From positions 4,092,001 through 4,156,000 of the forward strand of contig NZ_CP147913.1 of NCBI RefSeq assembly GCF_037414475.1: a stretch of 64,000 bases of DNA, given 5' to 3'. Below the pieces are notes generated by a model. It was not told the origin of the DNA, searched no databases, and saw nothing but the letters and a program-made list of their open reading frames with translations. Below are positions 8,264 through 64,000 of this stretch, in pieces (position 1 is the stretch's first letter; the number at the start of each line of letters is the position of its first letter). A program made the position numbers and the translations under genes. This stretch comes from Myxococcus stipitatus. GTDB lineage: Bacteria; Myxococcota; Myxococcia; Myxococcales; Myxococcaceae.

Positions 8264-10189
8264 TTACAGCTCCACCTGACTGCCCAGCTCCACCACGCGG
8301 TTGGGTGGAATCCGGAAGTAGGCGGTGGCGCTGCGGGCGTTGCGGCTCATCCAGGCGAAGAGGGCCTCGCGCCACACGGCCATGCCGGGGCGCTTGGTGG
8401 GGATGAGGGTTTCGCGGCCCAGGAAGAAGCTGGTGCCCATGAGCTGGAACTGGAGCCCCTTCTCCCGGCAGCGCTTGAGCACGTCCGGGATGCTGGGGTT
8501 CTCCATGAAGCCGTAGGTGGCGACGACGCGGACGAAGCCCTGCTCCAGGGGCTCCACCACCACGCGCTCGGCGGGGGGGACGTGAGGCACGTCCTCCGAG
8601 AGGATGGTCAGCAGCACCACCTGCTCGTGAAGCACCTTGTTGTGCTTCAGGTTGTGCAGGAGCGCCGGGGGCGTGCCCTCCGCGTTGCCGGTCATGAAGA
8701 TGGCGGTGCCCGGCACACGCAGGGGCGGGTGGTCTCCGAAGCTGCCCACCAGCTCCTTCAGGGGGATGCTGGACGCGCGCAGCTTGGCGGCGAGGATGGC
8801 CCGGCCGCGCTTCCACGTGGTCATCAGCGTGAAAATCATCAGGGCCAGCAGCAGCGGGAACCAACCGCCGTCCGCCAGCTTCATCGCGTTGGCGCTGAAC
8901 AGGGCCAGCTCCACCGTGAGGAAGAGGCCCGCCACCGGGATGGCCAGGGCGCGGGAGACGCCCCAGCGCTCGCGCGCCACGATGTAGGCCATGATGGAGG
9001 TGATGACCATCGTCGTCGACACCGCGATGCCGTACGCGGACGCCAGCGCGCTGGAGGAGCGGAAGGTCAGCACCAGCGTGAAGACCCCCACCAGCAGCGC
9101 CCAGTTGATGCCCGGCAGATAAATCTGGCCCATCTCCTCCGCCGAGGTGTGCACCACCTCCATGCGCGGGCTGTAGCCCAGTTGCATGGCCTGGCGGGTC
9201 AGCGAGAAGGCGCCGGAGATGAGGGCCTGCGACGCGATGATACCCGCCACCGCCGACAGCGCCACCAGCGGATAGAGCATCCAGGAAGGGGCCAGCAGGT
9301 AGAACGGATTGCGCGCCGCGCTCGCGTCACGCAGGAGCAGCGCGCCCTGGCCCAGGTAGTTGAGCATCAGCGAGGGCAGCACCACGCCGAACCACGCCCA
9401 CCGGATGGGCTTCCACCCGAAGTGGCCCATGTCCGCGTAGAGCGCCTCGCAGCCCGTCACCACCAGGAACACGCCGCCCAGCACGAGGAAGCCGTGCCAG
9501 CCGTTGTGCACCAGCAGCATCACCCCGTGCACGGGCGACAGCGCGCCCAGCACCGCGGGGTTGTGCACCAGCTCCTTCACGCCCAGCGCCGCCAGGGTGA
9601 AGAACCACACGCACATCACCGGGCCGAAGAGCGAGCCGATGCGCGCGGTCCCGTGGCGCTGCACCAGGAAGAGCACGGTGAGGATGGCCAGGGTGATGGG
9701 GACGACGAAGGGCTCGAACACGGGCGTGGCCACGCTGAGGCCCTCCACCGCGCTGAGCACCGTAATCGCCGGGGTGATGAGGCCGTCGCCATAGAGCAGC
9801 GCGGCGCCGAAGATGCCCAGGGTGATGAGCACCGGCCGGGCGACGGGGGCCGACTGTCCCCGCTGCCGCTGCATGGCCAACGCCATCAACGCCAGGATGC
9901 CGCCCTCGCCCCGGTTGTCCGCCCGCATCACGAAGATGAGGTACTTCACCGAGACGATGATGAGCAGGGTCCAGAAGATGAGCGACAGCACCCCCAGCAC
10001 ATTCTCGGGAGTGGGGGCGATGCCGTGTGGACCGGTGAAACACTCGCGCAACGCGTAGAGGGGGCTCGTCCCGATATCGCCGTAGACGATGCCCAGGGCC
10101 CCTAGGGCCAGGAGCGCCGTGCGTTTGAAGGTGTCCGGGCCTTCCCGAACCGCCTCGCCGCCGGGCGATCCAGTGGTGGTTGATTTCAC
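8264..10189 (-). CDS. kup: Low-affinity potassium transporter Kup
   Basis: A 641-residue KUP/HAK/KT family K+ uptake protein in the inner membrane. The first transmembrane helix carries the family signature GDIGTSPLYALRE, followed by about eleven further hydrophobic segments (LLIIVSVKYLIFVMRADN, GDGLITPAITVLSAVEG, MLNYLGQGALLL, ISTTMVITSIMAYI and others) and a soluble C-terminal domain of ~200 residues. Length fits the family (E. coli 622). The start is the GTG at 10189, preceded by AAAGGGGGGG; the frame is open 70 codons upstream but those do not look coding. Divergent from the histidine kinase gene across 255 bp. Confidence 0.95.
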   Translation of the reverse strand: MKSTTTGSPGGEAVREGPDTFKRTALLALGALGIVYGDIGTSPLYALRECFTGPHGIAPTPENVLGVLSLIFWTLLIIVSVKYLIFVMRADNRGEGGILALMALAMQRQRGQSAPVARPVLITLGIFGAALLYGDGLITPAITVLSAVEGLSVATPVFEPFVVPITLAILTVLFLVQRHGTARIGSLFGPVMCVWFFTLAALGVKELVHNPAVLGALSPVHGVMLLVHNGWHGFLVLGGVFLVVTGCEALYADMGHFGWKPIRWAWFGVVLPSLMLNYLGQGALLLRDASAARNPFYLLAPSWMLYPLVALSAVAGIIASQALISGAFSLTRQAMQLGYSPRMEVVHTSAEEMGQIYLPGINWALLVGVFTLVLTFRSSSALASAYGIAVSTTMVITSIMAYIVARERWGVSRALAIPVAGLFLTVELALFSANAMKLADGGWFPLLLALMIFTLMTTWKRGRAILAAKLRASSIPLKELVGSFGDHPPLRVPGTAIFMTGNAEGTPPALLHNLKHNKVLHEQVVLLTILSEDVPHVPPAERVVVEPLEQGFVRVVATYGFMENPSIPDVLKRCREKGLQFQLMGTSFFLGRETLIPTKRPGMAVWREALFAWMSRNARSATAYFRIPPNRVVELGSQVEL

Positions 10190-55930: not shown

Positions 55931-57466
55931 ATGGCCAATCAGGACTGGGTGTCACGCCTGCTCACCGGGCGAGCGTCGGTGGACAAGGGACTCAATGTCC
56001 ACCTCTCCGAGCGTGACGGTGGCAGCCTCCACGACAAGATGCGGCAGGCGTACTGGTGGATCACCAACAACGCCGTCATCTGCCCCTACTACGACATCGA
56101 GTTCGGGGGCTCCGCCGCGCTCAAGAGTTCCGCCGGGGATGAGCTCCACCTGCCCGAGGACATGAGCTACAGCTCCTTCGTCCTCATCCCCCTGCTCACG
56201 CTCTTCACCTGCCGCCGCGCGCTGCTCATCGGTGGCCCTGGCCGGGGCAAGACGACTTCCGCCATCCTCATGGCCCTCTTGTCCGGCATGTCCCGCGAGG
56301 ACATCCACCGCTCCATCCAACGCGGCCACCCGCAGCTCTCCATCGCGGACCTGCTCGGCGCGCCGCTCCCCTCCGACATGCTCAAGGCGGAGGACCTCTC
56401 CGCCGTCAAGGTGAGCTGGCGCAAGTGGATCACCCAACGCGTCAAAATCATCGACGAGTACAACCGCATCCCCACCAAGACGCAGTCCGCCCTCCTCTCC
56501 CTCATGGCCGAGGGCTACGCGGAGATGATGGACCAGTACGTCTACGCGGGCCGCTCCTCGTGGTTCCTCACCGCGAATGACGACCAGGGCGGCGGCACCT
56601 TCCAGGTCATCGAGGCCCTCAAGGACCGGCTCGACGTCGTCGTGCGCGCGGTCCCCTTCAACTCGAACTTCATCGACACGCTCCTCCAGCGCATCGAGGC
56701 CGACAAGTCCCCCGAGGAGCTGCTCCCCAAGGACATCATCTTCACCCCCGGGGAGTTGGAGCGCGCCTATGCCTCCATCCTCGAAGTCGAAGTCCCACGC
56801 GACGTGCTGGAGCGCGTGGCCTTCTTCCTGGGCCAGCTCGACTTCTGCCGCATGGCCTCGCCCCGCTTCGAGTTCAAGCACAAGGACACGCTCAAGCTCG
56901 CGGGACAGACGGTGGCCGCCGTGTGCAACGAGCAGTGCCCGCTCGACAAGAAGGTGCACCTCTGCACGCAGACGGAGAACGGCGTCAGCGTGCGCGCCTA
57001 CCAGACCATCCTCCACTACGCGAAGGCGCTCGCCTTCTTCCGCGGCCACCACACCGTGGAGCTGGAGGACTTCCGTCAAATCGCCCCGTGGGTGCTGCAC
57101 GAGAAGCTGGTCCCCAACATCCGCAGCGCCTTCTTCGAGGCCAAGGGCCACAAGGTCCTCCTCCAGGACCGCGTCGCCTGGATTCGCCACATGTTCGACA
57201 TGGCCATGGAGCACCACGAGCGCCACCAGCCCATCCGCCGCAAGGTGTCCGTGCTGCGCGAGGAATTGGACAAGGGCCTGTCCGGCATCGACCTGCGCAC
57301 CACCGAGAAGCGCCTCACCGCCGTCACCGCGCTGATGAACGAGCTGCTCACCAAGCAGGAGCTCTCCGGCCCTGTCTACGAGGACCTCATCCACCTCAAG
57401 TCCATGTACAGCCGCTACCGCAACTACGCGACGTGGCTGAAGGACAACCCGGGAGGCCGGCCGTGA
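55931..57466 (+). CDS. MoxR-type AAA+ ATPase
   Basis: A 511-residue AAA+ protein of the MoxR branch: Walker A GGPGRGKT (101-108), Walker B KIIDEYNRIP (Asp175-Glu176), sensor-1 region FLTANDDQGGGTF and sensor-2/lid helices behind. MoxR ATPases remodel partner proteins and work with vWA-domain proteins, one of which is encoded two genes downstream. The C-terminal ~150 residues (HMFDMAMEHHERHQPIRRKV, LREELDKGLSGIDL) are helical and may bind that partner. Its stop overlaps the next start as GTGA, so it leads a translationally coupled operon. Confidence 0.88.
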   Translation: MANQDWVSRLLTGRASVDKGLNVHLSERDGGSLHDKMRQAYWWITNNAVICPYYDIEFGGSAALKSSAGDELHLPEDMSYSSFVLIPLLTLFTCRRALLIGGPGRGKTTSAILMALLSGMSREDIHRSIQRGHPQLSIADLLGAPLPSDMLKAEDLSAVKVSWRKWITQRVKIIDEYNRIPTKTQSALLSLMAEGYAEMMDQYVYAGRSSWFLTANDDQGGGTFQVIEALKDRLDVVVRAVPFNSNFIDTLLQRIEADKSPEELLPKDIIFTPGELERAYASILEVEVPRDVLERVAFFLGQLDFCRMASPRFEFKHKDTLKLAGQTVAAVCNEQCPLDKKVHLCTQTENGVSVRAYQTILHYAKALAFFRGHHTVELEDFRQIAPWVLHEKLVPNIRSAFFEAKGHKVLLQDRVAWIRHMFDMAMEHHERHQPIRRKVSVLREELDKGLSGIDLRTTEKRLTAVTALMNELLTKQELSGPVYEDLIHLKSMYSRYRNYATWLKDNPGGRP

Positions 57467-58293
57467 GCGCCTCCTTCGCGGACGAGCTGGAGGCCCAGGC
57501 CCGGGGCCGCTACGTGCGCTGGGACGCGGAGCTGTGGCGCGAGTTGCTCCAGGGCCCCGCCCAGCGCCTCGGTGAAGCGCTGTCCCGGTCCGGCACCTCC
57601 GACGCGCTCGCCGCCGAGCTGATGCGCGCCTACCTGCGCCTGGGCTCGGAGGCCATCGGCCTGGGCTACCTCTACCCGGCCACCGCGGGCCGGCAGAACT
57701 TCTTCACCCTCGCGTGGTCGGACCTGGTGCCCCGCCTGCTCGCGAGTGTCCCGGAGCCCGCCCGCGCCAACGTGCTCGCGCAGCTCTGGAACGTGGGTGA
57801 GAACCTCGAGTCCGCGCCGCCCTGGGTGCAGCGCATCTTCCATCGCGTGAGCCAACGGCTCGACTCGCTCGAGGGCATCGAGGAGCGCCTGCGCGACACG
57901 GCCACCCTCGCCCTGGAGCCGCCCTCCGCGAAGCTGGGGGACCGCGCCCAGCCCTTCCTCGTGGACATGTCCCGCGAGGACAGCCGCTTCCTCCCAGGTC
58001 CCCTGCACTTCCTCGCGCCCACGGTGCTGTGCGTGCACGACCGGCACCGTCACGCCGTCGCGGGACGCGAGGCCTCCACGCAGGGCCTGCTCCTGGGAGA
58101 GACGCCGATTCCCCTCGGCGCCATGGGCTGCCGCGAGACGCCCGAAGTCACGCACGCGAAGTCGCCGCACCTGACTTCTGTCGCGAAGACCGACCCTCGC
58201 GTGGACGCCTGGTTCGCCACCGTGGCCAATGAGTGGCGCGCCGCCGGCACGCTGGACACCTCGCGCTTCGTCCTGGTGCTCGCGCCCGCATGA
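57463..58293 (+). CDS. Unknown protein of the MoxR-vWA operon
   Basis: A 276-residue soluble protein starting at GTG (GTGA overlap with the MoxR stop) with GGAGG six nt upstream. N-terminal half helical (DELEAQARGRYVRWDAELWRELL, VPRLLASVPEPARANVLAQLWNVGENL), C-terminal half with more strands (FLAPTVLCVHDRHRHAVAGRE, TSRFVLVLAPA). No known domain recognised. Its invariant place between the MoxR ATPase and the metallopeptidase-vWA protein suggests an adaptor or substrate of that machine. Confidence 0.75.
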   Translation: MSASFADELEAQARGRYVRWDAELWRELLQGPAQRLGEALSRSGTSDALAAELMRAYLRLGSEAIGLGYLYPATAGRQNFFTLAWSDLVPRLLASVPEPARANVLAQLWNVGENLESAPPWVQRIFHRVSQRLDSLEGIEERLRDTATLALEPPSAKLGDRAQPFLVDMSREDSRFLPGPLHFLAPTVLCVHDRHRHAVAGREASTQGLLLGETPIPLGAMGCRETPEVTHAKSPHLTSVAKTDPRVDAWFATVANEWRAAGTLDTSRFVLVLAPA

Positions 58294-59951
58294 GCACGTC
58301 GCGCTTCACACCGGAGCTCATCGCGAGGTGCTGGCGGGACGCGCTGGCGCTGTGGGACGTGCAGGTCCGCTTGAGCCCGCCCGAACCGCATGTCCCCTTC
58401 CGCCCGGCAGAGGACCACGCGAACGAGCCGCTCGCGTACATCGACCTGGTGAAGCGGCAGGTGTTCGTCCACTTCGACATGCTCGAGTCCATGGGCGCCG
58501 CGGACAGCCTCATGGCGGTGCTGGCCCACGAAATCGGCCACCATGCCCGCTTCCCGCACACGCTGGGCTGGGACGCGGAGCTGCGTGTCATGGAGCAGCG
58601 ACTGCTGCCCGGCATGAAGCAATCGCTGACGAATCTCTTCTATGACCTCCAGGTCAATGAAGTGGTGGGACGCACCCACGCGACGGACCTGTGTCAGGTG
58701 TACCAGGGCTTCCAGCGCGCCCGCGGCCATGGCGATGTGTCTTCGCTGTTCTTCTTCTACCTGGCCATCTACGAGGAGCTGTGGGGCCGTGAGCCCGGGA
58801 CGCTGGTGCCCGCCTCGGCGATGGCGCCGATGGAGGAGCGCTTCCCGGGCCTGCGCGTGGAGGCGCGCGTGTTCGCGCAGACCTTCTACGCCCTGCCCCA
58901 TCCTCGCCTCCAGTTCGTCTACTTCTGCGCCACCTTCATCCGCTACCTCCCAAGCGCCGACGAGGTGGCAGGGTCCATGCCCCTCACGGGCGACGTGCCC
59001 TTGCCGGACGTGGATGACTGGGACTCCGCGCTCCAGAGTGGAGGTCGCTGGGAGGACGCGCTGGACGAGGCCCGCGAGCGCGGCTGGCTGAGCGCGGAGC
59101 ACTCGGCGAAGGCCCCCGACGCGCTGGACCACATCGACCGCGTCACCCGGAGCCTGCCCGGCACGTCCGATGGAAAGCTGCGCCGCGCGCTGGTGTCGCG
59201 GCACTACCGGCGCGAGGTCGACAAGTACCTGTTGAAGCTCCCCTCCGCGCCGTCGAAGCCCGAGCCGTACCTGCGCACCACGCCCGAGGCCTGGGAGTAT
59301 GGCGATGACCCGTCCTCCATCGACTGGACGCTGACGGTGCTCTCCCAGGGACACCTGGCCGCGGTGGCTCCGCTGCGGCGCGAGCTGGAAGCGGACGTGC
59401 CCCCGGCCTCCGAGCCCGGCGTGCCCGAGCTGGAAATCTACCTGGACACCAGCGGCTCCATGCCGAACCCCGAGGTGAAGCTCAACGCGATGACGCTGGC
59501 CGCGCAGGTGCTGTCCGCGTCCGCGCTGCGCAAGCAGGCGAAGGTGCGCGGCGTCATCTACTCGTACGACTCGCCGCTCGTCTCCCCCTGGATGTACGAC
59601 GAGGAGCGGGCCCGCGACTTCTTCCTGCACTACATCGGCGGAGGGACGTGGCTCCCCGTCGACGTGCTTCGTCGGTCCGCCCGGGAGAAGCCCGACGTGC
59701 TGCGCGTCATCATCTCCGACAGCGACTTCCTGTCGAACGTGACCGCGGGCGACAACATGGACACGCTGGTGGAGGCGGTGAGGGGCTCTCGCATGCTCGT
59801 CGCGCTGCTCTCGCTCGCGGATGAGTTTCAAGCGCGGCGGACGCTGGCACCGGTGATGCGGGAGCGCGGCTTCCGCCTGGTCGTGGTGAAATCGTTGTCG
59901 GACTTCGGCCCCGCCGCCGCGGCCTTGTCCCAGGCATTGCTGGAGAAGTGA
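58290..59951 (+). CDS. Putative zinc metallopeptidase fused to a vWA-like domain (DUF2201-type)
   Basis: A 553-residue protein whose ATG overlaps the preceding stop (ATGA). The N-terminal domain contains LAHEIGHHARF, an HExxH zinc motif (His80, Glu81, His84), as in the DUF2201 putative metallopeptidase family. The C-terminal domain begins around residue 380 with LEIYLDTSGSM (Asp386-x-Ser-x-Ser390), the metal-ion-dependent adhesion site of von Willebrand A domains, and ends in a Rossmann-like pattern (VLRVIISDSDF, SRMLVALLSLADE, FRLVVVKSLSD). It is the expected partner of the MoxR ATPase. The combination implies ATP-driven control of a protease or chelatase-like activity. Confidence 0.87.
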   Translation: MSTSRFTPELIARCWRDALALWDVQVRLSPPEPHVPFRPAEDHANEPLAYIDLVKRQVFVHFDMLESMGAADSLMAVLAHEIGHHARFPHTLGWDAELRVMEQRLLPGMKQSLTNLFYDLQVNEVVGRTHATDLCQVYQGFQRARGHGDVSSLFFFYLAIYEELWGREPGTLVPASAMAPMEERFPGLRVEARVFAQTFYALPHPRLQFVYFCATFIRYLPSADEVAGSMPLTGDVPLPDVDDWDSALQSGGRWEDALDEARERGWLSAEHSAKAPDALDHIDRVTRSLPGTSDGKLRRALVSRHYRREVDKYLLKLPSAPSKPEPYLRTTPEAWEYGDDPSSIDWTLTVLSQGHLAAVAPLRRELEADVPPASEPGVPELEIYLDTSGSMPNPEVKLNAMTLAAQVLSASALRKQAKVRGVIYSYDSPLVSPWMYDEERARDFFLHYIGGGTWLPVDVLRRSAREKPDVLRVIISDSDFLSNVTAGDNMDTLVEAVRGSRMLVALLSLADEFQARRTLAPVMRERGFRLVVVKSLSDFGPAAAALSQALLEK

Positions 59952-60517
59952 TGGCTTTCGACATCAAGGACATCCAGAAGCAGCTCTCCGCCGTCCCCCT
60001 CGTGTCGCCGTATCCGCACGACCTGTCGGTGGCCATCATCTGCGACACCTTCCGCCTGGCGGGCCTGCGCCCTCCTTCGCGCGCGGACTGGGCCAGCATC
60101 GAGCACACCTCGAAGGCCGCCGCGCTCTGGAAGGAGCAGGTGGGGATGCTCGCGCACGTGCTGACGTCGTCGTCCCTGGGCGAGGAGACGGCCCGCGCGC
60201 TGCGCGAGGACGCCGACCCCCAGGTGATGCTGCGGGTGTTCTTCACGCGGGTGGAGCCGCTGACGGCGGAGATGGTGCGCTCCAATGCCTTCCGTCAGGA
60301 GGAGTTCCTGCGCAAGTGGGTGCACGCGGTGCGTGGCCAGGTGAAGGATGAATCCGCGCGGGACTCCGACGCGCGGCTGAAGCAGCTCGACTACCGCACC
60401 GCCCTCAAGGAGATGGAGCGGGCCGAGGAGGCTCGGAAGAAGGAGGCTGACAAGCGCCTCAAGGAGCTCCAGGAAGCGGAGAAGCGCGCCGCCGACGCGC
60501 GAGGATGGCGCGAGTGA
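59951..60517 (+). CDS. Unknown protein with charged C-terminal coiled coil
   Basis: A 188-residue protein starting at ATG 59951, one base of which belongs to the preceding TGA (TGATG). Residues 1-135 are helical with no familiar motif (VAIICDTFRLAGLRPPSRADW); residues ~140-188 are an uninterrupted Lys/Glu/Arg/Ala helix (ALKEMERAEEARKKEADKR) that should form a coiled coil. It overlaps the next gene by 13 nt. Probably a structural or adaptor part of the MoxR-vWA system. Confidence 0.75.
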   Translation: MAFDIKDIQKQLSAVPLVSPYPHDLSVAIICDTFRLAGLRPPSRADWASIEHTSKAAALWKEQVGMLAHVLTSSSLGEETARALREDADPQVMLRVFFTRVEPLTAEMVRSNAFRQEEFLRKWVHAVRGQVKDESARDSDARLKQLDYRTALKEMERAEEARKKEADKRLKELQEAEKRAADARGWRE

Positions 60518-61851
60518 TTCACGGCCTCCCGCCGGAGGCTCGCGTGGCCCCCCGCGCGAACATCCGCCGGGACACGGATACCCAGCGCCGCCACATCCCC
60601 TGGGCCGAGTCCATCGCCCACGCGCTGGCCCACTTCACCTCCCTCAAGGACGAGGTCCAGGCCCGCGCCGAGCTCGAATCCCAGCTCGGGCCCTTGCGCG
60701 TAGCGCTGCTCGCCTCGCCCTACTACACGCAGCGCCTGCGCGAGGCCGGGTTGCACCCCGGAGACCTGCGGACGCTCGAGGACCTGCGGCACTTCCCCGC
60801 GCTGGAGCGCAGTGTCCTCGCCCGGCACTGGGACCAGGTCCCCACGCCGCTGTCCCCCGAAGACGAAGGTGTGGTGGTGAGGAGCTCCGGCTCCACGGGG
60901 GAGCCGGTGAAGGTGGTGCGCGACAGGCTCGACTGCCTGCACATGTGGGCCGTGCTGCGCTTCTGGCTGGAGCGCGCGGGCGCCTCGCTCCCACCGCGTC
61001 CGCGCGTGGTGCTGCTGGACGCGCTGCCCGGAGGCCTGGAGTACTCGGTGCGCCTGCCCATCCTCCACGGCGGGGCGCTGCACCGCATCTCCGTGCTGCG
61101 TGACGACGCGCGAGAGCGCCTCTGCCGCGTGCGCCCGGCCGTCCTCTTCTCGGACCCGGAGGGACTGCGCTGGCTCTCGGAGCAGCGTGACCTCCCGCAT
61201 CCCGCGCTGATTCTCACCTCGGCGCAGCACCTGCCTCACGACACGCGACAGGCCCTCGCGCACGCGCTGCCCGCTCCGCTCCTCAACTACTACGCGACGA
61301 CGGAGACGGGCCCGCTCGCGTGGGAGTGCCTCCAGTCTCCCGGCCGCTTCCATGTCCTCGCGCCCGACGTGTGGCTGGAGCCGGACACGGACGAGGTGGT
61401 GGTGACGCGCCTGCGCCCCAGCGTCCTCCCCCTGCTCCGCTACCTGCCGGGCGACGCGGGCAGGACATGCAGGGAGGTGTGCACCTGCGGTTTCCACGGA
61501 TGGACGTTGGGACAATTCGGAGGCCGGGGCGCATGTCTCTACAGGCTCCCCTCCGGGCGCGCCGTGGATGCCTGGGCCCTGGCCTGGGTCTTCAAACACC
61601 ATGCGCTGCGAGCCTTCCGGCTCACCCAGGTGGAACCCTCCTGCTTCGAGCTGGAGCTGGCCGGCGCAGTGGACTCGGACGTGGCCCCGCTGTGTGAGCG
61701 CCTCCAGTCCGCGCTGCGCAACCTGGGCTGGAGTCAGCCGCCTCGGCTCCTCGTGCGCTTTGTGAGCGCGCAGTCGCTGACCACCGGGAGCAAGCCCCTC
61801 CCCTTCCGCAATCATGTTGCCATACCAACACCTCCCCTCCCGCACCGGTGA
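60505..61851 (+). CDS. Adenylate-forming ligase, phenylacetate-CoA-ligase/CapK-like
   Basis: A 448-residue ANL-superfamily enzyme of the PaaK/CapK branch: P-loop VVRSSGSTGEPVKV (124-136), NYYATTETGPLAWE (261-274) and a Cys-rich lead into the hinge (TCREVCTCGFHG...GGRG), where PaaK-like proteins have CxCGR. It would activate a carboxylic acid as an acyl-AMP and may pass it to a thiol or amine. Its start lies 13 nt inside the preceding gene, tying it to the MoxR-vWA operon. Length matches the family (~430-450). A ligase in a MoxR operon is unusual. Confidence 0.82.
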   Translation: MARVIHGLPPEARVAPRANIRRDTDTQRRHIPWAESIAHALAHFTSLKDEVQARAELESQLGPLRVALLASPYYTQRLREAGLHPGDLRTLEDLRHFPALERSVLARHWDQVPTPLSPEDEGVVVRSSGSTGEPVKVVRDRLDCLHMWAVLRFWLERAGASLPPRPRVVLLDALPGGLEYSVRLPILHGGALHRISVLRDDARERLCRVRPAVLFSDPEGLRWLSEQRDLPHPALILTSAQHLPHDTRQALAHALPAPLLNYYATTETGPLAWECLQSPGRFHVLAPDVWLEPDTDEVVVTRLRPSVLPLLRYLPGDAGRTCREVCTCGFHGWTLGQFGGRGACLYRLPSGRAVDAWALAWVFKHHALRAFRLTQVEPSCFELELAGAVDSDVAPLCERLQSALRNLGWSQPPRLLVRFVSAQSLTTGSKPLPFRNHVAIPTPPLPHR

Positions 61852-62262: not shown

Positions 62263-64000
62263 ATGAAGAAGTCGTGGCCCGGCCGCTATGGCGTCGCGCT
62301 GGCCTTCTACGGCATCGCGATGCTGCTCCAGATGGAGCTGCGTCCGCTCATGTCCACCAGCCCGTTCCTCTTCTTCTACGGCGCGGTGATGGTGGCGGGT
62401 TGGTGGGGAGGCTGGGGCCCCGCGCTGCTCGTCACGGGCCTGTCCCTGATGTCGGTGGACCACCAGTTCCTGCCGCCGCGGCTGACGCTCCAGATGCGGT
62501 CCGCGGACGTGCTCTCGCTGGGCATCTTCGCCCTGCTCTCCATCTTCATCACCAAGCTGAACGTGACCCTCAACCGGGCGCTGGAGGAGCGGGCCACGCT
62601 CCTGGAGCGCGAGCACCAGGCCCGCGCCGCGTCCGAGGCCGCGAGGTCTCGCCTGCACACCATCTTCATGCAGGCCCCCGCCCAGATTTTCTTCCTGAGG
62701 GGCGCCGCCCACGCCTTCGACTTCTCCAACGCGCGCAACAGCACGCTCTTGAAGAACCGCGACCTGCTGGGCCAGCCCTTCGAGGGCGGCGTGGTGAAGG
62801 TGGCGGACCAGGATGCGCGCGACGTGCTGGACCGCGTCTACTCCAGCGGCGAGCCCTTCGTGGGCACCGCCGTGCCGCTGCGCTTCCTCCAAGCGGACGG
62901 CATGGAGAAGGAGACCTTCCACAACCTCGTGTACCAGCCGACCCGCGACGCACAGGGGCAGGTGGACGGCGTCGCGGGCTTCGGCTTCGACGTGACGGAC
63001 CTGGTGCATGCGCGTCAGCGCGCGGAGGCACTGGCCACGGAGCTGCGGCAGGCCGAGTTCCGCACCCGCGTGCTCGCCGAGGTGAGCACGGTGCTCGCGT
63101 CCTCGCTCGACTACGAGATGACGATGCGCAACCTCGCCAAGCTGGTGGTGCCGGCGCTGGCGGACTGGTGCTTCGTGGACCTGGCGCAACCCGACGGCAA
63201 CTTCCGGCGGCTGGAGGTCGCCCACGCCCGGCCCGAGGACGCGCCCACCGCGGCGGAGGTGCTCAACTTCCAGCTCATGCCGGAGGGCAACCCGCGCCAC
63301 CCGCCCACCGCGGCGCTGCTGCGCGGAGAGGCCATCCTCCTGGAGGAGATGACGCCCGCGCACATCAAGCGCAGCGCCCACAACGAGAACCACGCGCGGG
63401 TGATGCTGGCCACCGGGCTGCGCTCCTTCATCGCCGTGCCGCTGGTGGTGCGCGGCCACACGCTGGGCGTCTTCAGCTTCTTCACGTCCTTCTCCAACCG
63501 CCGCTACACACAGGCGGACCTCGCCTTCGGGCTGGAGCTGGCCTACCGCGCCGCGCTCTCCATGGAGAACGCGCGGCTGTACCGCGAGGCGCAGGAGGCC
63601 ATCCGCCTGCGCGACGAGTTCCTGTCCATCGCCAGCCACGAGCTGAAGACGCCGCTCACGCCGCTGAGCCTCAAGCTCCAGGCGCTCGCGCGGGAGCTGG
63701 AGCGGCATCCGGACACCATCCCCTACTCGGTGGTGAAGGGCTATGTGGACACGGGCGCGCGGCAGGTGAAGAAGCTGGCGGAGCTGGTGGGGGACCTGCT
63801 CGACGTGTCGCGCATCGCCGCGGGCCGGCTCGCGTTGGAGCTGGAGGACGTGGACCTGGGCGCGCTCATCCGCGAGGTGGCGGCGCGCTACGAACCCCAC
63901 GCGGCCCGGGCGGGCTCCACGCTCCAGGTGGAAGGAGGCGAGGGGGGCCTGGTCGGACGGTGGGACCGGCTCCGGTTGGAGCAGGTGGTGACGAACCTCA
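62263..64000 (+). CDS. Membrane histidine kinase, DUF4118-PAS-GAF-HisKA-HATPase, 3' end outside window
   Basis: 579 residues are visible; the frame is open to the last base. An N-terminal hydrophobic block with about four helices (~5-95; RYGVALAFYGIAMLLQMEL, FLFFYGAVMVAGWWGGWGP, SVDHQFLPP) matches the DUF4118 membrane domain of KdpD-like kinases. Then a coiled linker, PAS (~125-255), GAF (~268-440) and the DHp domain with SHELKTPL (His459) follow; the ATPase domain is cut after its first strand (LEQVVTNL). The start is uncertain: ATG 62263 has GGAGG 12 nt upstream; GTG 62128 and ATG 62080 are in frame. Closest in-window relative is the kinase at 10445. Confidence 0.85.
   Translation, partial: MKKSWPGRYGVALAFYGIAMLLQMELRPLMSTSPFLFFYGAVMVAGWWGGWGPALLVTGLSLMSVDHQFLPPRLTLQMRSADVLSLGIFALLSIFITKLNVTLNRALEERATLLEREHQARAASEAARSRLHTIFMQAPAQIFFLRGAAHAFDFSNARNSTLLKNRDLLGQPFEGGVVKVADQDARDVLDRVYSSGEPFVGTAVPLRFLQADGMEKETFHNLVYQPTRDAQGQVDGVAGFGFDVTDLVHARQRAEALATELRQAEFRTRVLAEVSTVLASSLDYEMTMRNLAKLVVPALADWCFVDLAQPDGNFRRLEVAHARPEDAPTAAEVLNFQLMPEGNPRHPPTAALLRGEAILLEEMTPAHIKRSAHNENHARVMLATGLRSFIAVPLVVRGHTLGVFSFFTSFSNRRYTQADLAFGLELAYRAALSMENARLYREAQEAIRLRDEFLSIASHELKTPLTPLSLKLQALARELERHPDTIPYSVVKGYVDTGARQVKKLAELVGDLLDVSRIAAGRLALELEDVDLGALIREVAARYEPHAARAGSTLQVEGGEGGLVGRWDRLRLEQVVTNL

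Follow-up and report, generated by a model that had tools for sequence, protein, structure and literature searches.

We describe a gene module made up of a MoxR ATPase, the protein U276, an HExxH/vWA protein and the protein U188, to which further enzymes are modularly added. The module occurs in bacteria and in a few archaea. It is undescribed, and no description of its gene set was found in open-licence PMC full text. Among its relatives, a PaaK-like ligase and a Glu as the last residue of U188 tend to occur together, a covariation that is suggestive, not proven, at the level of sequence. Our favored but tentative reading is a carrier-protein machine in which the U188 tail would be charged by the ligase and serviced by MoxR and the HExxH/vWA protein.

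Operon architecture and protein families

The window is a 64,000-nucleotide stretch of the Myxococcus stipitatus genome. Its forward strand carries genes for a MoxR-type AAA+ ATPase (P0001, 511 aa, 55931..57466), U276 (276 aa, GTG start, 57463..58293), an HExxH metallopeptidase-like domain fused to vWA (P0003, 553 aa, 58290..59951), U188 (P0004, 188 aa, 59951..60517) and a PaaK-like adenylate-forming (ANL) ligase (P0005, 448 aa, 60505..61851). Successive genes overlap by 4 nt (GTGA), 4 nt (ATGA), 1 nt (TGATG) and 13 nt, as the preliminary description of this DNA had stated, and the last overlap is possibly 4 nt. The ligase may start at the GTG at 60514, because the tblastn alignments of several close orthologs (L051-L054, L057) begin at residue 4. 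The five overlapping genes are confirmed as real, and their conserved order argues for this more strongly than the overlaps do: all five occur together, in the same order and strand, in 49/49 Myxococcaceae type-A loci, a set in which some genomes, reached via two collections, are counted twice.

Upstream on the same strand, 30 nt before the MoxR start, ends the gene for a LuxR/NarL-type response regulator (P0006, 55259..55900) with GerE and response-regulator matches. Its cluster is present in 23 of the 41 sources compared, and it may have a regulatory tie to the operon. Downstream lies a gene (62263..64000, forward strand, continuing beyond the window end) that we named a sensor histidine kinase from its sequence inspected by eye and that presumably acts as one. 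It was seen as an open reading frame in locus L071, and cluster c1 adjoins the operon in most Myxococcaceae loci.

P0001 matches the Pfam models AAA_3 (3.5e-07) and AAA_lid_2 (1.3e-10), both above their cut-offs, which identifies it as a MoxR AAA+ ATPase. Its relatives at 80 loci in many phyla (the best 80 of 438) are 47-95% identical to it, and the motifs GPGRGKT and DEYNRIPTKTQSALLSL are invariant. U276 is predicted with high confidence (AF2 pLDDT 94.9) to consist of a helical N-terminal domain (1-153) and a beta domain (159-276). The preliminary description had called for profile searches of the 276-aa and 188-aa proteins; these found no family above threshold for either. Fold searches with U276 gave weak WD40-blade-like matches (Z <= 8.1) and no trustworthy match, an absence that does not make the fold new. 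Two designed proteins among the PDB sequences match U276 at about 4e-07 across a 41-residue stretch, with one further match at 0.03; we take these as helical-repeat similarity. U276 looks adaptor-like.

In P0003, the zinc-site motif HEIGHH (residues 80-85, 58527..58544) has invariant H80, E81, G83, H84 and H85, and HExGHH is present in all 58 family members that hold this segment, which also gives a weak M48 profile match. The MIDAS motif DTSGSM (residues 386-391, 59445..59462) has invariant D386, S388, S390 and M391. Pfam calls no vWA domain in the window protein; we recognized the domain through the invariant MIDAS residues and through VWA_2 matches in 3/18 relatives. The protein stops shortly after this domain and contains no further Pfam domains. 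The label "DUF2201-type" in the preliminary description holds for the architecture, since DUF2201_N/DUF2201 proteins likewise carry an HExxH domain N-terminal to a MIDAS-bearing vWA, but not for the Pfam models: PF13203 and PF09967 do not match the window protein at E 1, one of 18 relatives reaches 0.042 to PF13203, and in a profile comparison with the P0003 family the vWA part alone aligns, at a probability of 31%. In the one true DUF2201 locus examined (L254), an AAA-like frame was seen by eye upstream.

P0005 matches AMP-binding in Pfam (1.2e-07, above cut-off) and keeps motifs that we take to be A3, A5, A7, A8 and the A10 lysine, which places it among PaaK-like ANL enzymes. K430 (codon 61792..61794), the candidate catalytic lysine of A10, is nearly invariant. 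The relatives of P0005 in the PDB are phenylacetate-CoA ligases, and its likeness to these and to NCBIfam DVU_1553 is one of sequence family; it differs from them in having the fixed partner U188, and its DVU_1553 score, 67 bits, falls below the cut-off of 300. The MoxR, HExxH-vWA and adenylate-ligase identities proposed from the sequence at first sight are borne out by AAA_3/AAA_lid_2, by HExGHH with MIDAS and by AMP-binding, respectively.

Distribution of the module

The full five-gene set is also found in Planctomycetota, Acidobacteriota, Proteobacteria and Asgard-labelled contigs, and relatives of the module occur in myxobacteria, planctomycetes and large sulfur bacteria (Thiomargarita, Parabeggiatoa). 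Genes outside the window were called with a codon-usage caller and stop-to-stop frames and assigned with custom HMMs. The contig scan took the best 80 of 438 relatives, which over-represents close relatives, and some tallies include the centre genome, itself picked for having the system. The preliminary description had proposed an undescribed system that includes the ligase and both unknown proteins, to be given up if these were absent from most loci. The 49/49 Myxococcaceae loci uphold the proposal. Among the 53 non-Myxococcaceae loci with 3.5 kb on either side of the vWA gene, U188 (40/53) upholds it as well, and U276 (33/53 by profile) and the ligase (22/53, absent from the counted span in 31/53) do so less. 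At several U276-negative loci, an unrecognized gene of 296-394 aa occupies the U276 slot.

A ligase or radical-SAM gene is present in 36 of the 53 loci, where the radical-SAM HMMs are broad and any radical SAM gene was counted. Radical SAM, AsnB and MGT genes recur beside the ligase type in different phyla; AsnB lies near 4 and MGT near 3 of the 53 loci, the MGT counts being upper limits that include a separate neighbor (L071_08 type) through profile drift. The protein c21 has no match in PDB sequences, Pfam or NCBIfam, and a PLP label considered for it was unsupported.

The C-terminal residue of U188

U188 is predicted to be all-helical (AF2 pLDDT 94.3), with a long helix (148-187) that extends to the final residues. 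It has invariant D32, R115, E117, E118, R121 and E134, a single Cys, and ends in GWRE, the Glu codon lying at 60512..60514. The structural search found no convincing match (no PDB match with Foldseek E < 2; best VIA Z 3.1), and PDB sequences gave none; as for U276, absence from fold searches does not make the fold new.

The terminal Glu is kept in 31/32 U188 proteins whose fetched stretch also contains a family ligase, whereas it occurs in 3/22 without one, in a set that leaves out Myxococcaceae repeats and duplicates. The sole exception with a ligase is a second paralog at L107, where the ligase-adjacent copy has RRE as its terminus. The three Glu-ending proteins that have no ligase nearby (L033, L128, L215) come from genomes with a ligase elsewhere (368, 288 and 367 bits). 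Ligase-less U188 proteins mostly have Gly-Lys-Trp/Phe/Val termini and are paired with radical-SAM enzymes; five such genomes gave no ligase match at 1e-10, and two more gave weak matches only (57 and 43 bits). The U188 at L219 ends in REW, yet its genome has a 404-bit ligase elsewhere. In the L135 genome there is likewise a ligase, which has a Glu-ending U188 of its own. At four loci looked at later (L233, L237, L238, L242), the ligase-adjacent U188 is Glu-terminal in all four, while the second copies of L237 and L238 end in GPL/GAL and the other locus of the L233 genome ends in PPK. A further 4/4 ligase-linked U188 proteins, from genomes searched after the idea arose, also end in Glu. L216 has two U188-ligase pairs, both with a terminal Glu, and at L127 a gene missed by the profile in the U188 slot ends in YGE.

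As a control, we compared the last residues of the other operon proteins at the same loci. U188 ends in Glu in 29/29, whereas the last residue is unconserved in MoxR, U276, vWA and ligase; because these vary, general conservation of C-termini by chance is rejected. Gene overlap as the cause of the terminal Glu is ruled out by codon and stop variety: both GAA and GAG and all three stops are in use, and in 15/82 Glu-ending U188 genes no start triplet spans the stop. On the vWA tree, Glu was lost only 3 times, and each time the locus has lost its ligase as well; a paired test gives p 0.25, significance being unreachable with 3 events. This tree test is the fair one, as identity clustering to remove relatedness merged nearly everything and left no power.

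A candidate carrier mechanism and its alternatives

U188 is best read, by analogy, as a carrier that would be LysW/Pup-like in logic, not in family, with a ligase that may activate or recognize its C-terminal Glu. From the observed gene set, order, spread across phyla, ligase motifs, HExGHH and MIDAS motifs and Glu pattern, we infer the following steps. U188 would be a folded helical carrier with the C-terminal tail as its working end. The PaaK-like ligase, using ATP, would adenylate the alpha or gamma carboxylate of the last Glu and then couple this Glu to a partner with an amine group, which is probably a small molecule. Radical SAM, asparagine-synthase-like and MGT glycosyltransferase enzymes encoded nearby would alter the load. 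U276 would link MoxR to the HExxH-vWA protein, and the resulting AAA+ machine would present the loaded tail, remodel it or release it; the HExxH site is the candidate hydrolase. The preliminary description had suggested a possible ATPase-controlled activation of an acid or tagging of a protein, which comes close to this; its interpretation as a whole is partly supported.

A precedent is LysW/ArgW, which carry substrates on the gamma-carboxyl of the C-terminal Glu, as passages of PMC10433800 describe. On the carrier reading, U188 would resemble them in working through its C-terminal Glu and in having an ATP-using ligase of its own, as LysX/ArgX are for LysW/ArgW. In the same passages LysW has a C-terminal EDWGE and Zn-binding Cys, whereas U188 is helical, 188 aa long, ends in GWRE and has one Cys. 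The ligases also differ in fold. LysX is an ATP-grasp enzyme; the enzyme beside U188 is ANL, and we know of no ANL enzyme that acts on a protein C-terminus. New chemistry in bacteria and Asgard-labelled archaeal contigs is a possibility that we regard with some doubt: an ANL-fold ligase would adenylate a folded carrier's Glu, MoxR-vWA would service it, and the tail residues would encode which enzymes work on the carrier, either the ANL ligase or radical SAM together with c21. PEARL/pearlin clusters, in the parts of PMC9303977 that describe them, similarly have a carrier peptide worked at its C-terminus, a radical-SAM enzyme and a metalloprotease, but use aminoacyl-tRNA and phosphorylation; no PEARL gene was recognized at the loci here.

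MoxR-vWA pairs are widespread, mostly without a defined substrate. The present gene set points to a candidate substrate (U188), a candidate reaction (adenylation of the C-terminal Glu) and a residue to mutate. If the carrier reading is true, another ligase fold would join the few known ways of charging protein tails, and U188 with an adjacent PaaK-like gene would mark, for genome mining, metabolites built on such carriers by myxobacteria, planctomycetes and Asgard archaea.

The Glu of U188 could instead be a docking tag for the ligase or the MIDAS metal, with the ligase making a CoA or AMP ester of a small acid and MoxR-vWA serving as a chaperone that helps the ligase or the radical-SAM enzyme to assemble. 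We consider this unlikely, though well short of far-fetched. The phenylacetate-CoA ligases among the PDB relatives of P0005 and the invariant MIDAS residues fit it, and the main text of Kaur et al. 2020 (PMC7159879) summarizes MoxR-vWA pairs as peptide-capturing chaperones. Ligase-less loci, however, keep MIDAS but mostly not Glu, and because MIDAS is found there too, MIDAS docking alone fails to explain the Glu pattern; ligase docking would explain it.

Protein tagging, with U188 as a Pup-like protein whose Glu the ligase would join to target lysines and with MoxR and the HExxH protein unfolding or untagging the products, is improbable. The Pup pathway has an AAA+ partner; the operon has one too, together with a U188 that ends in Glu, a ligase of its own and a hydrolase candidate. 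In passages of PMC5358908, the C-terminus of Pup is Gln/Glu, and a ligase of the glutamine-synthetase family attaches Pup via the gamma-carboxylate of that glutamate. The ligase here is ANL and falls outside that family, U188 is predicted to be well folded, and radical SAM, AsnB and MGT beside the ligase type suit a small-molecule load better.

A stress or conflict system, as floated in the preliminary description, here of the MoxR-vWA ternary type of Kaur et al. 2020, would fit the MoxR-vWA core and the host organisms, which are of the kind stressed in the main text of PMC7159879, but it is highly improbable: PADLOC gave no match at E < 0.001 (best E 0.0089, chance-like), viral contigs yielded nothing useful, plasmid and phage searches found no vWA relative, effector-like variable domains are absent, gene content is fixed in all 49 Myxococcaceae loci, the locus stays in place through the genus, and a defense role was rejected for lack of support in these searches.

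What the module has in common with the ternary systems in that main text (VMAP, iSTAND, FtsH, beta-propeller; PMC7159879) is a MoxR AAA+ gene next to a vWA gene, accompanied by another partner. It differs in the N-terminal HExxH fusion of the vWA protein, the ANL ligase, U188 and the lack of effector domains, and the searched main text makes no mention of such a ligase. The VMAP type has the strict order VMAP-MoxR-vWA; in the operon, the gene upstream encodes a response regulator and U276 sits between MoxR and vWA. The P-loop of P0001 is GGPGRGKT, unlike the GxxxTAKS often seen in the MoxR of FtsH and beta-propeller types, and some FtsH-type systems include radical-SAM genes (PMC7159879, main text).

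Gene content of the operon and its relatives

Gene positions bear out the preliminary description of five overlapping genes at 55931-61851. In the 10.3-Mb genome of the window, a response-regulator gene lies 5' of the operon, ending 30 nt before MoxR, and a sensor kinase gene lies 3' of it. The first gene encodes MoxR, plainly an AAA+ protein. In the third protein (vWA), an N-terminal HEIGHH segment with a weak M48 match is followed by a C-terminal vWA domain identified from its invariant MIDAS residues. The fifth gene encodes an AMP-binding enzyme of PaaK-like type. Among 38 such ligases aligned, some truncated, nearly all retain the nucleotide-binding, Glu, Gly-Asp, Arg and C-terminal Lys motifs, and the relatives with solved structures are phenylacetate-CoA ligases. 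From these features, we predict that the ligase should adenylate an acid.

For the second and fourth proteins, U276 (276 aa) and U188 (188 aa), searches of Pfam, NCBIfam and PADLOC gave no family match at threshold. U188 is predicted to be helical (pLDDT 94.3), with a long helix at its C-terminal end; Foldseek found no structural relative with E under 2, and VIA-align gave Z of at most 3.1. U276 is predicted to contain a helical domain and a beta domain (pLDDT 94.9), and the latter matches WD40 blades with Z up to 8.1, a range where the tool warns of chance.

Using gene-neighbourhood comparison, we found a core of MoxR-U276-vWA-U188 with varying added genes. Type A adds the ligase, which in L031 and the Planctomycetota loci L094 and L095 is separated from the core by x206, a protein of 206-208 aa. 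Type A often occurs with radical SAM, asparagine-synthase-like and MGT glycosyltransferase genes (Myxococcaceae, L094, L095, L101, L136). The window's genome has all three, about 1.9 kb beyond the window end (operon locus L071, 4904-8321; G000:C1 about 4157904-4161321), with a further, unassigned gene neighbouring them at 8563-9375. Since Planctomycetota and Acidobacteria loci of the ligase type (L094, L095, L136) have relatives of these genes alongside, the three look like parts of one pathway.

Type B lacks the ligase and has an x206 homologue together with a radical SAM gene and a protein termed c21, as in Myxococcus second copies (L034-L037, L039), Parabeggiatoa, Thiomargarita and Singulisphaera. 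Six large Myxococcus-group genomes (L034-L039) hold a second, ligase-less copy with an x206 homologue; radical SAM and c21 both appear in five of these stretches, L038 being the exception. Where found, c21 (L034 5756-6658 and relatives; 300 aa) sits with the type-B set, and at the thresholds applied it matches nothing in Pfam, NCBIfam or the PDB sequences. Type C has a radical SAM gene inserted between vWA and U188 (L144, L147, L148, L213, L214). Type D, possibly a sister system, has the order WD40-MoxR-vWA with radical SAM close by, and lacks U188 (L040-L042, L109, L113); L040 and L041 also hold what we take to be a Memo-like gene. Because a full WD40 gene precedes MoxR in type D, the WD40-blade likeness of U276 merits a second look, no more.

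All five genes occur in 49/49 Myxococcaceae type-A loci, some genomes being counted twice. In 53 loci outside this set for which 3.5 kb was available either side of vWA, we counted MoxR in 51, U188 in 40, U276 in 33, the ligase in 22, radical SAM in 27 and either of the last two in 36.

Covariation of the U188 tail with the ligase

The pattern first noted was a last residue of Glu on U188 in ligase-bearing loci and a Gly-Lys-Trp/Phe/Val end in type B; further loci were added afterwards, some being contigs already in the set. Leaving out Myxococcaceae repeats and five duplicates (L110, L112, L200, L201, L206), U188 ends in Glu in 31 of 32 cases with a ligase in the stretch versus 3 of 22 without (Fisher p 1.5e-10, relatedness ignored). 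All 49 Myxococcaceae loci end GWRE. The sole exception among the 32 is a second U188-like gene in L107, not adjacent to the ligase. L237, L238 and L107 each pair one ligase with two U188-like genes, of which the adjacent one ends RRE and the other GPL, GAL or LGP, as if forming a heteromer or left as a spent copy.

The three genomes with Glu-ending U188 and no nearby ligase carry a ligase of the family at another site (G013, 368 bits; G1036, 367; G1324, 288). In seven type-B-like genomes (G202, G1327, G1328, G1330, G1331, G200, G1329), a ligase search at 1e-10 gave no match in five, the remaining two showing weak ones of 57 and 43 bits. The genome of L135 does carry a ligase, adjoining its own U188 ending TRE (L233), and G1332, G1333 and G1249 have separate ligase loci, each with an adjacent Glu-ending U188. 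L219 counts against the rule, since its U188 ends REW although a ligase lies elsewhere in the genome, with no U188 within that ligase's 1.5-kb flanks. This SREW end extends the usual SRE by a single Trp codon ahead of the stop. In two Polyangium genomes with U188 ending GKG, ligase matches reach 217 and 214 bits, their family being uncertain. L127 has, at the position of U188, a gene that was missed by the profile and ends YGE. In the last six loci, collected afterwards, 4/4 ligase-linked U188 end in Glu; the two without ligase end GKW and RRV, the former locus probably being the L115 contig again.

Across 29 ligase-bearing loci, taking the Glu-ending copy for L107, U188 ends in Glu in 29/29, while the last residues of MoxR, U276, vWA and the ligase are mixed; position -2 of U188 is Arg in 24/30. 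Overlap with the next gene was ruled out as forcing the terminal Glu, because Glu-ending genes use either Glu codon and any of the three stops, and 15 of 82 lack a start triplet spanning the stop. In a tree built from the vWA proteins of 51 loci, 6 changes are needed to account for the ligase label and 3 for the Glu label; independent pairs differing in Glu run in the expected direction in 3/3 (p 0.25), and with three pairs this covariation cannot reach significance. The stronger fact is that Glu is constant as last residue throughout the ligase-linked tree, Asgard contigs included, although U188 diverges to 15-25% identity.

Possible roles of the tail

L216 contains two U188-ligase pairs with a Glu end in both. 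Such paired duplication, an unchanging final residue next to a dedicated acid-activating ligase and the switching of the tail with the enzyme set point to the U188 tail as a substrate or recognition site for the added enzymes. That U188 is a carrier is our leading, still tentative, reading. LysW/ArgW (PMC10433800) and Pup (PMC5358908) are known carriers with a functional C-terminal Glu, and in pearlin carriers a radical SAM enzyme and a metalloprotease act at the C-terminus (PMC9303977); U188 belongs to none of these. A docking tail, with the ligase acting on a free acid, is somewhat less probable. Protein tagging via U188 is unlikely, and a conflict system more unlikely still. We found no published description of the gene set in the open-licence literature searched; Kaur et al. 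2020 (PMC7159879) treats other MoxR-vWA systems.

Distribution across taxa

A vWA relative is present in 55 of 195 genomes in a search of the window's phylum. Using a MoxR alignment against genome contigs, we took the best 80 of 438 relatives, which include Myxococcus, Corallococcus, Polyangium, Planctomycetota, Acidobacteria, Opitutaceae, Peristeroidobacter and Thiomargarita, as well as MAG contigs labelled Lokiarchaeota, Sigynarchaeota and Helarchaeota. Outside the window's phylum, occurrence is sporadic in the groups searched. Counting the centre genome itself, matches were found in 20/392 genomes of G195's phylum (15 of them with E of 1e-163 or lower), 5/288 for G196 (2 strong), 7/297 for G198, 3/329 for G199 (at 1e-20) and 6/287 for the class that includes G200 (at 1e-20). 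The phylum to which the Helarchaeota contig belongs gave a vWA match in 67/148 genomes, only one of them full-length; the others form a divergent family. Many Asgard-group genomes hold a divergent MoxR and HExxH-vWA-like pair, and in the seven loci inspected (L220-L226) neither U188 nor a ligase lies close to it. A Myxococcus-like copy (MoxR identity 88%) is also present in L083, from a record titled Comamonas sp. KCTC 72670, a name that is probably wrong.
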